From positions 1-21,382 of IMG/VR virus record IMGVR_UViG_3300025159_000130: a stretch of 21,382 nt of DNA; one strand, 5' to 3'. The notes beneath the pieces are model-generated. The model was not told where the DNA came from. It saw only the letters and a program-made list of their open reading frames with translations, and made no database searches. The stretch comes from a virus. Each line of letters begins with the position of its first letter. Within the stretch, counting starts at the first letter, position 1. Below, in pieces: positions 2-19,860 of this stretch. A program made the translations under genes and the position numbers.

Positions 2-34
2 ACTGGAATGTTTTTATCAATGGGATGCGGTTAA
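2..34 (+). CDS. C-terminal tail of an upstream gene (partial)
   Basis: A reading frame open from the left edge ends at a TAA at 32-34, giving the tail TGMFLSMGCG. It stops 26 bases before the well-supported start at 61, which fits the tight spacing of this operon. Ten residues cannot identify a product. The frame of the next gene is also open to the left edge, so this may not be coding. Confidence 0.3.
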   Translation, partial: TGMFLSMGCG

Positions 35-60
35 TAAAATCACAAAGAGAGGGGAAATCA

Positions 61-594
61 ATGCAAGGAATAGTAGAGAAAATTAATCAGAAGGTAGTAC
101 AATTAGCTAATGGCCCCAGGACAGCTTATTCACTCTTAATTTCTGGTGCGTGGTATTCACTAGGATTTGATAATAAGTTGCTCGTAGCGTCAGGTGTAGC
201 CGAAAAGGATACGGTAGAATTCACTTCTCACAAGAATGAGAAGGGATATAATAACTTAGACTCTTTAACCAAGATTGCTTCTGCTCCTGCTACTTCTCCT
301 GCTCCGGTTGCCACTACTGTAACCAAATCAACTGGTAGTGCTGATTATAGCTCAGTTGATAGGCGTGAAGCGTTAAAGGTTGCTGGCGATCTTGTTCTAG
401 GGTATTATAATCATCCAGCATCCAAGAAGGTTACAAGTTTGGATGTTCTTCTATCCAAGACCGTAGCATTAGCAGACCATTTATTTAGATATATTTCTAC
501 AGGGAAAGTAGAAGTGGTAAATCAGGAAGATGCTGCAAAGGTAGAAGAAGTATTAAACCCAAATCCAGAAGCAACGGAAGATATACCGTTCTAA
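61..594 (+). CDS. Single-stranded DNA-binding-like protein with acidic IPF tail
   Basis: Probable phage SSB, 177 aa. The N-terminal ~70 residues look like a small OB-fold: a beta-rich stretch with NGPRTAYSLLI, a GAWYSLGF turn and GYNNLDSLTKI at the end. A low-complexity Ala/Pro/Thr linker follows at about residues 78-95. A mainly helical C-terminal half ends in EATEDIPF, which matches the acidic DDIPF-type tip that bacterial and phage SSBs use to recruit partner proteins. The ATG at 61 is chosen over the in-frame ATG at 25 because AGAGAGGGG lies 6 bases upstream. The helical C-terminal region is longer than in a minimal SSB, so extra partner contacts are possible. The gene sits just before Cas4-like and endonuclease VII-like genes, which suits a replication/recombination role. 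The call rests on tail and fold pattern only. Confidence 0.6.
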   Translation: MQGIVEKINQKVVQLANGPRTAYSLLISGAWYSLGFDNKLLVASGVAEKDTVEFTSHKNEKGYNNLDSLTKIASAPATSPAPVATTVTKSTGSADYSSVDRREALKVAGDLVLGYYNHPASKKVTSLDVLLSKTVALADHLFRYISTGKVEVVNQEDAAKVEEVLNPNPEATEDIPF

Positions 595-613
595 GAATTG
601 GACAAATCCTATC

Positions 614-661
614 TACTGTCATAATGCCTAGTTGAAGCTAGGAACTTCACATATGATAGTA
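614..661 (+). ncRNA. Pseudoknotted RNA element A, downstream of the SSB-like gene
   Basis: An outer stem of 10 bp pairs 614-623 with 652-661 (one G-U). Inside it CCTAG (627-631) pairs with CTAGG (638-642), leaving a six-base loop. The last five loop bases, TGAAG (633-637), pair perfectly with CTTCA (645-649). This makes an H-type pseudoknot with a 1-nt first loop and no gap between helices. It starts 20 bases after the SSB-like stop codon. The same layout with different sequence occurs after the capsid gene (18389-18433, minus strand). Possible roles are 3'-end mRNA protection or control of the nuclease gene at 752. The pairings are read directly; the function is inference. Confidence 0.5.
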
Positions 662-667
662 AATTAG

Positions 668-723
668 GGGCCAGGGTTGGTATTGATAGGATACTGAGGG
701 ATTGATCTCCCTAAATCTGGCCC
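668..723 (+). ncRNA. Three-way-junction RNA fold in the leader of the Cas4-like gene
   Basis: GGGCCAG (668-674) pairs with CTGGCCC (717-723), closing two small hairpins: GTAT/ATAC (680-683/691-694) and AGGGA/TCCCT (697-701/708-712). An alternative helix is also available: ATCCTATC (606-613) matches GATAGGAT (685-692) perfectly over 8 bp. It would replace the first hairpin and knot this domain to the region before element A. The fold ends 8 bases before the purine-rich SD (731-744) of the gene at 752, so it could act as a 5' leader control element. It is not a tRNA, because there is no T arm. Confidence 0.4.
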
Positions 724-751
724 AATATTAAAGGAAGGAAAAGGATGCTTA

Positions 752-1516
752 ATGCCTAAATATTGGTCATTATTGGAACAAATATTAGATGAAGCTATTA
801 ATTTAAGGTATGAAGCAAGAAAAGCCAGGAGAAAAAATAAAGTAAAGTTTGCTGCTTCTAATGCTGGATTTTGTAAAAGAGCTACCATATTAAACAGGAT
901 TAATGCTAAGGAAGATGATATTGACCCAAGAACTAAGCGTGTTTTTTGGATTGGAGAAATTTTCCATGACGCTATAGTAAATCTTCTAAGGACAGTAAGT
1001 GGTAGGTTAGTCGCAGCAGAAGAATATGTAGGTAAATATGAAGATGACATTGGAGCAAAGTTTGATTTTATACTGAGAGATGATAATGGTCTTAATGAAT
1101 TAAATGAACTAAAAACCGTTACAGATGGTGGTATATGGGCCAAGATATTGAAGGCAAAGAAACCAGATCACCACCATGTATTTCAAGCGTTGACATATTG
1201 GATTAAAAATAAAAAGTACAGGGTAGATAAATTAGTGATATCATATATCTCTAAAGAATCTGCCATATTGAAAGTATTTAGAGTAAATGTAACAGATGCT
1301 TTATTGAAAGAAGTAAATGATTGGTGGGATAATATAAGAGAAGCATATAACAGGAAATGGTTGCCACCACCATTAGATGAAAAGTCTGTAGAATACAAAA
1401 AGTTTTGTAATAGTTGTACTTATAGAAATAAATATTGTTTTGGTGATCCAATCGAAATGGAAGAAAATATAAGGGAGTTGGTATGGGACAATGCCAAAAA
1501 ATTGGAGACTAAATAA
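752..1516 (+). CDS. Cas4-like / RecB-family PD-(D/E)XK nuclease with Fe-S cysteines
   Basis: A 254-aa protein with the Cas4/AddB-type layout. C41 lies in the N-terminal part and the cluster C219-x2-C222-x6-C229 near the C-terminus, the four ligands expected for a 4Fe-4S cluster. Between them are the nuclease core residues: H72 (GEIFHD), D105 (KFDFIL), E119-L-K121 (ELK) and Q145 followed by Y149 (the QxxxY helix). Enzymes of this family degrade or trim DNA ends, often 5' to 3' on single strands, and phage versions are usually linked to recombination and replication. Start ATG 752 follows an AAGGAAGGAAAAGG tract. The gene overlaps the endonuclease VII-like gene by 26 bp, so translation is probably coupled. 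No cas1 or CRISPR array is near, so this looks like a stand-alone phage nuclease. Confidence 0.75.
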   Translation: MPKYWSLLEQILDEAINLRYEARKARRKNKVKFAASNAGFCKRATILNRINAKEDDIDPRTKRVFWIGEIFHDAIVNLLRTVSGRLVAAEEYVGKYEDDIGAKFDFILRDDNGLNELNELKTVTDGGIWAKILKAKKPDHHHVFQALTYWIKNKKYRVDKLVISYISKESAILKVFRVNVTDALLKEVNDWWDNIREAYNRKWLPPPLDEKSVEYKKFCNSCTYRNKYCFGDPIEMEENIRELVWDNAKKLETK

Positions 1517-7678: not shown

Positions 7679-10600
7679 TTACCCATAGATTCGTGTTCCT
7701 GCCTTCTGTTTTTGTTCTTCTGGAAACATCTCATTATATAATCTTTGCCCTATACCATAAGGAATTGCCCTAAGAGTAAAATATGATATAGACTTTAACA
7801 TCTTTCTTTGTTCTTTTGGAGACAGTCTACCATCCAAAACAGCTTTAACAGAAGATGACATAAAATCTCCATATCGTTTAAGCATAGATATGTTCGCACC
7901 CTCCATATAATTTACTACTCCCTTTCCTCCACGTTTAAATGTGGACATAACTATATCTCCGTAAAGTCCAAATGTTTGAACCATAATTAAATTATCTACA
8001 ATTCTCTGCAACCCTTTTGGTCTTTCTTTACCTGTCATCTTACTTTTTAAATCTTGCACTAATTCTGTAGTGCCTAATTGTAGTGTTAGAGCAGTTAATA
8101 ATGGTTTAACATTTCCTCTAGCCATTTGATCCCACAAAGCATTTTTCATAAATCGACTTTGTGTAAAAGCAAAGTTTTTAAATAGCGTGATAAATTTAGC
8201 AAGGTGGTTGCTCCATGCTAGAGGTAAATCAACTGGGCGTGTTCTACCGATTACTAAATCAGTAAATCGTTTAACTGCTAGATCATGTTGTTCTGGTCTT
8301 AATCCTTTATTACGAAGCACTTCTTTAGGATCAAAATACAATTCTTCCAATCTCTTACTTAAATCTTTAGATGTAGGATTTTTAAGAAATTTTTTGATAA
8401 CATCATTAATATATATCTTCCCACCATTAGCTGCCATGATCCTAGTATGATTATCTGCCCAATTAAGACCAGATAACTTCATATAATTTTGGCTATATGC
8501 TCCTGTTTTATATAAATTTCTAAAATCATTAAACGTATTCCCCATAAGTACGCCAACCTGTTCAGCATACTCTTGTGGTGCTTTAGATACAATATGTTTC
8601 AATCCAGTATATACAGATGATACTCCAGCCTTAAATCCTGCTTTAAGAAATACGTTAGGGGTAGACATATACTGTGCTATTTGAGACATCCCTAGCATAG
8701 TAGAGGCTGTGAAATTAGTTAGTTTAGACACGACAAACGCAGTATTTACATCTTTGACATCTCTATGAGTAATACGTTTAAATAAACCAGCAGCTATATT
8801 AGCTCTTGCCCTGTCCGTTTTACCTATTTCTCTAATTAGATGATATGCTACTTTTGTTCCCTTCTCCCCAAATTGTTTTAATTCTTCTGCACGTCTGTAT
8901 GTTCCCATTAAGTAATTTTCAAACTCAGTAAAATCAACATCGAACCCATGTTTCTTTAATTGGTCATACCCTCTAATATGAAGTGTTCTTGCTTTTTCTG
9001 CTCCTGCAAATTCTCTATTAGAATATTTAAGTCTATAATCTTCGATTATATTCAAAGCAGCATTCATATCTTTGGCTTGTTTATTTTTAATTAGTGTTTT
9101 AGCTACTTCTGGTGCATTCTTAAAAAACTTTTCAGCATCAATTAAATGATGGCCCCAAAATGGTCTAGTTATCGTTGCTACTTCACCACCAACATTTCTT
9201 AAAGCGTCTGTAGCATCAGCTTTAGCTTTAGACATATATTCTGCCATAGCTTTAGCTCTAGGGCTAATGAATTTAAATGTATCTTCAAAATACCACTTCT
9301 CGTCCATCCAATCAACTACATTTGCTTTTTCTTTTTCACTCAATTTATGCCATTCTTTTTTCTTTGCAGATGTGGCAATACTTCCTACAATCCTTTCGGG
9401 TTCATCCACAAAATTCATTATTTTTGTTGCCAGTTCCCTTCCAGCGTCTCCTGCTTGTTTAATTGCTACTATAGAAGTAGTGGCTAATTTTCTAAATGAG
9501 CCACTCATTTTTTCCCATGTTGTTAGATATCCAGATTCGGCAGCATCATTAATTAATTCATCATAATTTTTATTAGCAGCTTCAAAATCTTGTGCTTCTC
9601 TGGCTGCTTGTGTAGCAGGAGATTCTGGTGGTAGTTGTCTTTTTAATGTTTGCTCTGCTGTTTCCAAACCTCGCATTTTTCTGGCTTTTATATTTTGAGC
9701 CTCATATCTATGACTGACAACTTGACCCATCTCCGGTTCTGTTAATCCTTCAAGCTGTTTCATTTTAGTAACTTTTTCCACATTTTGAAATTGTAATTCT
9801 ACATCAGGATCGGGAGTATAATTATGTGTATGCTCAAAATCAATCTTCTGTTCTCTTGTTAATTCTTCTGGATTAAGCCCAGTTTCTTTAATCTGTTTAT
9901 TTAAACTGGCTTCTGTAACTGGTTTTGTTTTGATAGAGTTATAAAGTTTATTTCCACGATTTAAAACCCGTAATGTTTGTGATACCCCCATATATCCACC
10001 AATGGCAACCAATTCATCAATTAATTGAGATTCAAATGGAGTGGTAGTAATTTTAGCTGTAGGAGCTAAACCAAGTGTTAAGCCCTTTAATGTATATACT
10101 CCTTTTTGGTAAGGAGGCATTTCTGTTACTCCTTTTAATAATTCTTCTGGTGCTGCAAAAACTATCCCCATTTTCTCTGCTTCTTCATGCCCCTCTTGTA
10201 TCTCTAAGAAGTTATATAAATCTTGACCGTATTCAGGATCAACATGATAATCTTCCATTATTTGTTCAACAAATTCTTCTGGAGTTTTCTTAATACGAGT
10301 ACCGGCTTCATCCCATTTATAAAGATCGTTAGGATTATATAATCTATTAGGATTAATTGGTTTAGTTTTTTCAAATTTTCCTAATATACCTTTAACTCTA
10401 TCAACATCAGTTTTTTCTGGGTGTTCAAATTGAGACACAATTCCAGCTACTCTACCTTCTAAACCAGTAGCATATACTTCCGCTCCCAAACTAATAACAG
10501 GCTGATCGGGAAATTTTTCTTGCAAAGATTTAATTAATGAAGATTCATACATTTTTTCAGCTATAGCTTTTTGTTCTTTATTAGCAGTAGCGAAACGATA

Positions 10601-17755: not shown

Positions 17756-18256
17756 TTAATTGCCTTTTAATACTGCCAATTCTAATATTGGGTGTTCTAT
17801 ATATTCTAATTCTTTCCTTTTTGCTTCTTCTCTTGTCTCCATCATTCCTTTTAGTCGGCTTGCCAAACTAACAGGGACTTCAACTATCCCACAATATCTA
17901 GCTCCATTAATTATTATTTCTGGCTTCACATTTATCTTGACTTTTTTTTCCCCAGTATCTTCTAATTTTTCCTGTACTGTTTTGGCTGTGTCTGCCAACG
18001 CATCAGCGTCTAATTTCTTCTGATCTACCAGTCCAGATACTATCTGAGTAAGAAGATTAATTGATCTTTCTAGTTTATCAAATCTATCATCATTGGTAGC
18101 AGGAGAAGGACTTGCACCTTCTATCTTTTGGGTATGAGCCAAATGAGTATCTACATTCTCTTTCCTGCTATTCTTATTCTTTGAGCCTGGGGGTCTACCA
18201 CGCTTCTTTACTATAATTTCTTTTTCAGTAAAATCTAATTCTAATTGGTTGGACAT
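17756..18256 (-). CDS. AT-hook-containing protein in the capsid operon (166 aa)
   Basis: The N-terminus carries KKRGRPPGSKNK (17-28), a textbook AT-hook that binds the minor groove of AT-rich DNA. A Ser/Pro-rich linker and a coiled coil (FDKLERSINLLTQIVSGLVDQKK, 59-81) follow. The C-terminal part is beta-like then helical (PEIIINGARYCGIVEVPVSL, KGMMETREEAKRKELEYIEHP). It comes right after the capsid gene and the structured RNA stretch. A DNA-binding protein made with the capsid could sit at the portal vertex or organise packaged DNA; that is inference. GAGGATG provides the SD. Confidence 0.65.
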   Translation of the reverse strand: MSNQLELDFTEKEIIVKKRGRPPGSKNKNSRKENVDTHLAHTQKIEGASPSPATNDDRFDKLERSINLLTQIVSGLVDQKKLDADALADTAKTVQEKLEDTGEKKVKINVKPEIIINGARYCGIVEVPVSLASRLKGMMETREEAKRKELEYIEHPILELAVLKGN

Positions 18257-18285
18257 TTCATCCTCTTTTTTGAGTAATAACCCTC

Positions 18286-18359
18286 ATCCTGCTCCCAGGA
18301 TCATCCTCGGTCATCGGATATTAGCTAGTTCCTTTTAGACATTGTATTGTCAAGAACCA
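18286..18359 (-). other. Further predicted hairpins after the capsid gene
   Basis: On the minus strand, TGGTTC (18359-18354) pairs with GAACTA (18331-18326), enclosing GACA/TGTC (18351-18348/18341-18338). ATCCTG (18301-18296) pairs with CAGGAT (18291-18286) around a GGAG loop. With pseudoknot element B these fill most of the 179-base gap between the capsid gene and the AT-hook gene. None is followed by a T run, so they are not simple intrinsic terminators. Confidence 0.35.
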
Positions 18360-18388
18360 TTTTACCGAATTATACCTACTCCACCCTT

Positions 18389-18435: not shown

Positions 18436-19860
18436 TTAATCAAATGAAGATTCAGCTTCTACTCGATTGAAGAAGTTGTTGTTGTTGATTACGCATTTGA
18501 ACATAATCTTCCATCCAGCTTTACGTCTTAATGCTAGAGGATTACTATCACTTGCCCCAGGAGGGGTTAGTGTAGACTGTAAGTTTTGTAGATCAACAAC
18601 GGTGTATGCTTCCTTACCGAATAAGAATCCAAGGTGAGTCTTGGAACTAGCTGATGCCATTTCGTCAAGTAAGCTACCAGCAGTTGTACCGGAGGTAGCG
18701 ATTGCGAAGATTGTAGTACCATTGGCATTGGCAGTATCTCCAATCTCAATACTTGCTGATGCAGCAAAATATTGATCTGAACCTTGAACATACTTAGTAA
18801 TAGCTGCGTTTGCAGCACTAGAAGCGGTAATATCTGATGCGGATGTTGCCCAGTAAATCTTATATCGTAGTGTAGCAGTAGATGGTAACACTACGGTAAC
18901 AGAGTCATCAGTATCGGCAGCACCAACATCCTCAGTTGAAACTTGGTAGATTACGCTAGGATAATTGAATGTAGTATCGAAACCTACAACTAGAATCCGG
19001 TGATAACGTAGTGCCAAATCTCCCCCACCTTCATTAATATTTGTGGTAGGTGCAGCAGCAGATGTTAAAGTTGGAAGTGAATTGGATCGTAGAAAACGAA
19101 CACCTAAGAACTCTCCAATCTCTCCATTCCATAACCTCTTTGCAGCAGCGTATTTAACTGAGTCAATAAAATCAGGATCAGATGATACATCAAACTCCAT
19201 GTAGGAATCAAGAATAGATACATAATGATCTCCTAACTCTGGATCGGCAACCCCTGGCGCACGTTCCATTCCCATAGCACCATTAGCTCGTAGACTTGCC
19301 ACCATCCTACGCCATGTATCAGAAGTAACTACATCGGTAGAGGTTAGTGAAAATCTATTTGCAATAGTACCAGGATAGAAGATAGATGTTCCAGTCGCAA
19401 CGACATTAAAACATTCTCGCTCAACTGTTTCACCACTCTGAAACCCTAATAGTTGTAGAGCCTTTTGTAGAGGCTTATGTTTAATTGTTAATTCAGCAAC
19501 GTCAGTAATTGTAACGTATGCTCCCCACTGTTCCGCAGTCGCAGTAACAGTTGAAATACTCATTGTAGTAGAGCTACCCTCATTACCTTCACTAATTACA
19601 CTGAAAGGTAATGGTAAACGCTCATATCGAGTATATTGGAATGTCTTGGATGATTGAGAAGGCAATACTGCCTTATCACCCATTTCATAGAACCTTAGAA
19701 TCTTATAAGCAATCCTAAGAGTTTTTTCTGCAATGTACTGGATAGCGTCTGATCCAGACTGTACGGTATAATTACCGAGAACAGTGGATGTGGTATCTGC
19801 TCCACCAGCCATCTTAGGTTGTAACCAAGAAGATAGCTTATTGGATAACCACTTGAACAT
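18436..19860 (-). CDS. Major capsid protein, N4gp56-like, with inserted beta domain
   Basis: A 474-aa HK97-fold-type capsid protein. It shows the N4gp56 family pattern: GDKAVLPSQSSKTFQYTRYERLPLPFSVISEG (61-92), then TATAEQWGAYVTITDVAEL (106-124), and EFLGVRFLRSNS (250-261) near the shell-domain end. The usual lead-in to the last strand (LGFLFGKEAYTVVDL, 410-424) is delayed by about 125 residues. The extra beta-rich, Ser/Thr/Ala-rich segment (about 282-405) reads like an added Ig/Fn3-type surface domain. AAGGAG lies upstream of the start. It follows the scaffold gene by 15 bases, and a structured RNA stretch follows the stop. Confidence 0.85.
   Translation of the reverse strand: MFKWLSNKLSSWLQPKMAGGADTTSTVLGNYTVQSGSDAIQYIAEKTLRIAYKILRFYEMGDKAVLPSQSSKTFQYTRYERLPLPFSVISEGNEGSSTTMSISTVTATAEQWGAYVTITDVAELTIKHKPLQKALQLLGFQSGETVERECFNVVATGTSIFYPGTIANRFSLTSTDVVTSDTWRRMVASLRANGAMGMERAPGVADPELGDHYVSILDSYMEFDVSSDPDFIDSVKYAAAKRLWNGEIGEFLGVRFLRSNSLPTLTSAAAPTTNINEGGGDLALRYHRILVVGFDTTFNYPSVIYQVSTEDVGAADTDDSVTVVLPSTATLRYKIYWATSASDITASSAANAAITKYVQGSDQYFAASASIEIGDTANANGTTIFAIATSGTTAGSLLDEMASASSKTHLGFLFGKEAYTVVDLQNLQSTLTPPGASDSNPLALRRKAGWKIMFKCVINNNNFFNRVEAESSFD

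Follow-up and report, generated by a model that had tools for sequence, protein, structure and literature searches.

Closed H-type pseudoknots of unrelated sequence behind two stop codons of a phage genome, and a covarying RNA between SSB-like and Cas4-like genes

Introduction

The window (the whole stretch of viral DNA analysed here, 21,382 nt) raises the question of what a single pseudoknot fold, written twice in unrelated letters, might do behind the stop codons of two genes. The initial annotation placed the fold downstream of an SSB-like gene on one strand and of the major capsid protein gene on the other, held that the pairing and not the sequence is conserved, and proposed a 3'-UTR element that blocks exonucleases or stabilises mRNA. 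To our knowledge, structured 3'-UTR elements have seldom been documented in bacterial viruses, and sequence-based family searches are blind to a fold that is kept with unrelated sequences. The features discussed are listed in Table 1.

Table 1. Coordinates of genes and RNA features, in the window unless a contig locus is named.
Feature	Location	Strand	Description
SSB-like gene	25-594	+	Upstream of copy 1; likely start 61; product ends EDIPF; no family match; OB-like strand order in low-confidence model
Proposed larger RNA	597-726	+	P1 597-601/722-726, P2 606-613/685-692, P3 697-701/708-712, PK 670-675/716-721; blind topology search
Copy 1, SSB-side pseudoknot	614-661	+	P1 614-623/652-661, P2 627-631/638-642, pseudoknot helix 633-637/645-649; scans
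Cas4-like exonuclease gene	752-1516	+	Downstream of copy 1; phrog_1706 E=5.7e-25, phrog_1990 E=6.6e-13
Gene downstream of capsid UTR	17756-18256	-	tRNA-like sequence within reading frame
tRNA-like sequence	18097-18169	-	In variants: L008:4694-4766; L007:3404-3476; L078:7304-7376
Rest of capsid-downstream intergenic region	18257-18388	-	Blocks GGGTGGAGTAG, CGAGGATGATC, GATGAGGGTTA framing a variable hairpin and a covarying one, then ribosome-binding site
Copy 2, capsid 3'-UTR pseudoknot	18433-18389	-	P1 18433-18425/18397-18389, P2 18424-18420/18413-18409, pseudoknot helix 18418-18414/18402-18398; scans; kept in L008, L003, L007
Major capsid protein gene	18436-19860	-	Upstream of copy 2; phrog_1357 E=1.1e-35
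SSB-Cas4 RNA of G006	L018:3567-3678	+	112 nt; covariation-supported closing stem around H-type pseudoknot
SSB-Cas4 RNA of G012	L079:5283-5414	-	132 nt; as above

The pseudoknot plan in the window

Copy 1 reads TACTGTCATA atg CCTAG t [TGAAG] CTAGG aa [CTTCA] ca TATGATAGTA and copy 2 reads TTAGCCTAT GAACC a [TCTAC] GGTTC taagta [GTAGA] ATAGGCTAA, with the pseudoknot strands in brackets. The closing stem P1 has 10 bp in the first, one of them G-U, and 9 bp in the second. In both, a 5-bp hairpin stem (P2) carries a 6-nt loop split into one base and five, and the 5' strand of the pseudoknot helix runs directly into the 3' strand of the hairpin. Copies 1 and 2 differ in the length of the 3' linker (2 and 6 nt, respectively) and have no stem sequence in common. 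The architecture that the initial annotation had described, including the gapless pseudoknot helices and the unrelated stems, was thus confirmed in each copy.

Because covariance models cannot hold a pseudoknot, a pseudoknot-aware scanner for the strict plan (5-bp stem, 6-nt loop split 1+5, 5-bp pseudoknot helix, closing stem) was used in place of a covariance model of the two copies. On both strands of the window it returned exactly two matches, copy 1 and copy 2. The plan was not as common in shuffled sequence, which the annotation had named as grounds for rejection: with P1 of at least 8 bp it was absent from 1,500 dinucleotide shuffles of the whole window, both strands. The core without its closing stem is expected 0.89 times per window in such shuffles, and two closed copies are therefore far beyond chance for a plan that was, it must be added, defined post hoc after both copies had been seen. 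When the scan was carried to relatives, as had also been proposed, the strict plan with P1 of at least 7 bp matched only at homologues of both places among 106 fetched phage loci (1.06 Mb, overlapping); with a 6-bp stem, it also matched one AT repeat in G012. The intergenic regions of G012 contain AT-rich repeats (L079:14277-14668 and 9635-9763) with many overlapping inverted repeats and numerous pseudoknot-like scan matches.

A looser scanner with relaxed loop and stem lengths found one equally good match in 14 of 200 shuffles (7%), so that a single copy alone is only mildly significant. The statistical strength rests on two matching copies and their homologues, not on either fold singly. Folded without pseudoknots, the two intergenic regions scored z = -1.8 and -2.3.

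Placement relative to genes

Both copies lie in the 3'-UTR position claimed for them, copy 2 beginning 2 nt past the capsid stop codon (18438-18436) and copy 1 beginning 19 nt past that of the SSB-like gene (592-594). Closing stems begin past the upstream stop by 2 nt at the window's capsid gene and, for the larger RNAs described below, by 2 nt in the window, 8 nt in G006 and 3 nt in G012; the spacing to the next gene is variable, whereas this offset stays at 2-8 nt. Neither intergenic region contained an intrinsic terminator (a G+C-rich stem followed by a T run), which disfavours reading the structures as terminators, or a sigma-70 promoter above chance.

The identity of the capsid gene was supported by its PHROG match. 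The label SSB-like draws on the protein's C-terminal DIPF tip and on the OB-like strand order in a low-confidence structure model that is too weak for a fold search; no family was matched in Pfam or PHROG searches.

The capsid copy in related phages

The capsid pseudoknot was kept in all fetched contigs that reach past the stop codon and encode a 100%- or 93%-identical capsid protein. P1 and P2 were identical in the window, L003, L008 and L007, while at third codon positions of the capsid gene the window was only 78-80% identical to L007 and L008. The changes fell in the linker (shortened to 4 nt in L003, altered in L008) and, in L007, in the loop base, the linker and the pseudoknot helix, where TCTAC/GTAGA became TCTATT/AATAGA, that is, a C-G to U-A exchange plus one extra U-A pair. 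Counted by hand, the variable sites of the capsid copy included 4 of the 7 unpaired positions but just 2 of the 38 paired ones (Fisher p=0.003).

In G012, whose capsid protein is 66-67% identical, the pseudoknot was absent at this place and only a 6-7 bp stem (CTTAGC/GCTAGG) was found. The purine-rich blocks GGGTGGAGTAG, CGAGGATGATC and GATGAGGGTTA were nevertheless conserved down to this distance, and the hairpin between CGAGGATGATC and GATGAGGGTTA covaried, from ATCCT/AGGAT in the window to ATCACA/TGTGAT in G012. Since G012 lacks the pseudoknot despite the conserved flanking blocks, the pseudoknot is not essential to the whole group. Judged by sequence comparison, the capsid pseudoknot is real and selected in the closer group, within a larger structured region. 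As to homologous loci lacking any pairing, a further ground for rejection named in the initial annotation, pairing is kept in the 93%-identical relatives, and in G012 the pseudoknot is gone and a stem remains.

Searching with the capsid P1 pair and a free middle yielded just homologues plus unrelated chance or coding matches, and protein alignment brought no new full-length variants in viral contigs and none in genome contigs. The hairpin insert framed by the capsid-downstream blocks differs in length and sequence among variants.

Further downstream, the reading frame of the post-capsid gene contains a sense-strand tRNA-like sequence (42-62 bits against Rfam tRNA) in 4 of 4 variants examined, directly after an RGRPxGSKNK motif in each. 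The window and L007 have the anticodon CAU there, L008 and G012 have UGU; unlike tRNAs thus occupy the same place, and the reading frame is open through each.

The SSB-side RNA

The only homologue of copy 1 was found in contig G004 and is identical, which makes covariation uninformative at this place. The 2-nt linker spanning a 5-bp stem is sterically tight, and the pseudoknot-free fold favours a 6-bp hairpin with a UGAA loop. The conservation of pairing over sequence claimed in the initial annotation holds for the capsid copy, with its compensatory change in L007 and its far less variable paired sites; the SSB-side copy occurs only in this phage and the identical contig.

Two relatives, G006 and G012, have the same gene order, SSB-like then Cas4-like, with SSB-like proteins 86% and 38% identical to that of the window. 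Their gap sequences are mutually alignable through CACCTACCTAnCTGTnGGGTATATnGCnGGAG and the hairpin loop AGGAAATG, and contain the long invariant blocks CACCTACCTA and GGGTATAT besides that loop. A four-helix model, consisting of a closing stem P1, a helix P2 interlocked with a long-range PK, and a hairpin P3, fits both. Its 24 pairs show 8 double changes, 3 single changes and none broken, one pair being missing from both strands of G006 simultaneously; at least one double change falls in each of the four helices. When the partners were slid by 1-3 columns, at most 44% of positions paired and at most 1 double change was seen. The conserved block was found only in G006, G007 and G012, and only three distinct sequences of this RNA are known.

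A local pseudoknot in G006, CCTAC[CTAGCT]GTAGG..[AGCTGG], was dropped, since G012 has not preserved it and the covarying long-range helix competes with it. In G006 the SSB-like frame also stays open for about 79 codons past its TAA, across the structured RNA (L018:3556-3795), which is probably chance; the window does not share this.

A sequence-free topology search recovered the G006 and G012 model and found the same helix order in the window. None of 200 shuffles reached the score of the window, G006 or G012. Of 3,000 shuffled versions of the window region, 12 reached the score, 5 of them with a stem near the stop codon, and among 160-nt tiles of three genomes 9 of 1,260 reached 24.8. Because the gap limits of this search were set after the window had been viewed, the proposal that positions 597-726 fold like the RNA of G006 and G012 is suggestive. 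Copy 1 would then appear to be a domain inserted between P2, which ends at 613, and PK of the larger RNA. At the place where the initial annotation put copy 1, relatives carry a different, larger pseudoknotted RNA. The four-helix topology was also sought in the capsid region and was not found.

Putative role and alternatives

The elements are probably genuine components of the messages, with a putative regulatory or stabilising role. The reading we favour, at a probability of about 0.38, is that both places hold 3'-UTR structures acting in cis, by which the upstream message is protected or delimited. A fold that is kept while its letters change, a site just past the stop codon and the lack of terminator features together fit a barrier or end-marker against 3'-to-5' decay. 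Structured RNA, a closing stem around an H-type pseudoknot, would stand in polycistronic phage messages directly past the upstream stop, and the fold rather than the letters would matter, as expected for a mechanical barrier. Decay would be preceded by cleavage further downstream, for instance at the tRNA-like sequence 3' of the capsid RNA; were this sequence excised, a new 3' end would arise close to the capsid pseudoknot. The barrier would then shield the 3' ends of the capsid and SSB-like coding regions from 3'-to-5' exonucleases and raise the expression of both relative to the downstream genes. Counting against a barrier are the missing capsid pseudoknot in G012 and the small SSB-side copy without an independent homologue, and the conserved blocks adjoining both elements suggest more than a passive one.

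The main rival, possible though doubtful, is translational control as in T4 gene 32: the SSB-like, capsid or downstream protein would bind the pseudoknot as an operator and thereby govern initiation at the following gene. The H-type core with its 5-bp stem and 1-nt first loop, the SSB-like gene adjoining one copy, and the conserved purine-rich blocks and small ribosome-binding-site hairpin that follow the capsid pseudoknot ahead of the next gene would all suit such an operator, for which T4 provides the precedent (PMC535899, PMC3014915). Position is, however, tied to the upstream stop and not to the downstream start, the 90-132 nt up to the next start have predicted structure where the T4 segment is unstructured, and the SSB-like protein matched no PHROGs or Pfam family.

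It is on the unlikely side that the regions encode a trans-acting or ligand-responsive RNA, with the small pseudoknots as peripheral domains of this new ncRNA or sensor. G006 and G012 keep the invariant blocks and the interlocked core while the SSB-like protein falls to 38% identity, as such an RNA might; against it, no promoter or terminator of its own was seen, the blocks are not conserved in the window version, only three distinct sequences are known, and no Rfam relative was found.

A DNA-level element, with the inverted repeats as protein sites, or two chance folds is an improbable reading. The post hoc plan, the 7% of shuffles matched by the looser scan and the SSB-side copy without a homologue lend it something, but the strict plan was absent from all 1,500 shuffles, the compensatory change lies in a helix outside the outer inverted repeat, and copy 1 has a G-U pair in the sense strand. 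A stimulator of frameshifting or stop-codon readthrough at either gene is hardly credible, even though pseudoknots are frequent stimulators and the coat proteins of T3 and T7 have frameshifted extensions (PMC5009743), as the zero frame past the capsid stop closes after two codons in all variants but L003, where it takes five, most variants have stops in the shifted frames within a few to about a dozen codons, no frame is conserved between variants, and the stop-to-stem spacer is just 2 nt.

Should the barrier reading be true, it would show tailed phages setting unequal expression within one operon without terminators, by means of a small natural RNA that resists 3'-to-5' decay. A wider version, which we regard as unlikely, is that this lineage reuses closing stems with H-type pseudoknots past stop codons, free of sequence constraint and including, in the gap from the ssb-like to the cas4-like gene, a new RNA family of about 120 nt. 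These would be the bacterial equivalent of exonuclease-resistant RNA, acting against 3'-to-5' decay. Whatever its function, the SSB-Cas4 RNA is a covariation-supported structure absent from Rfam.

Comparison with known RNA families

Only tRNAs passed in Rfam searches of the window, L078, L020, L007 and L008; focused scans gave nothing credible, and the SSB-Cas4 RNA of G006 and G012 had no match. Likeness to hammerhead and group I RNAs was judged by helix order only and finds no support in Rfam. STAXI (RF01728) is likewise a pseudoknot motif near SSB genes (PMC2864571), but it consists of two to three tandem repeats with UUCG loops in Enterobacteriales, and its covariance model matched none of 8 records at E <= 10. 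The L17 downstream element (RF01708) belongs to the 3'-UTR structures known yet unusual in bacteria (PMC2864571). It and other candidate 3'-UTR RNAs resemble the present elements as structured 3'-UTR RNA of a highly expressed gene with a putative function, and differ in structure and hosts.

The T4 precedent is a pseudoknot in the leader of gene 32, bound by gp32 and serving as its translational operator (PMC535899, PMC3014915). The gene 32 mRNAs of T4, T2 and RB69 share with the phage elements a small H-type pseudoknot with a short first loop and coaxial stems and the link to an SSB gene. The T4 operator lies in the 5' leader and is followed by an unstructured UUAAA-rich segment of more than 40 nt up to the start codon, whereas the elements here follow stop codons, are enclosed by a 9-10 bp closing stem and precede the predicted-structured stretch noted above.

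The exonuclease-resistant RNAs of flaviviruses and plant viruses stop a 5'-to-3' enzyme. They too are compact pseudoknot folds in a 3' region; in the phage elements, unlike those viral RNAs, the closing stem encloses the pseudoknot partner, and a barrier would face a 3'-to-5' enzyme. The structures described here can be classed with the untranslated-region RNAs of phages, a general kind already known; as RNA structures they are new, and their placement and fold are uncommon.
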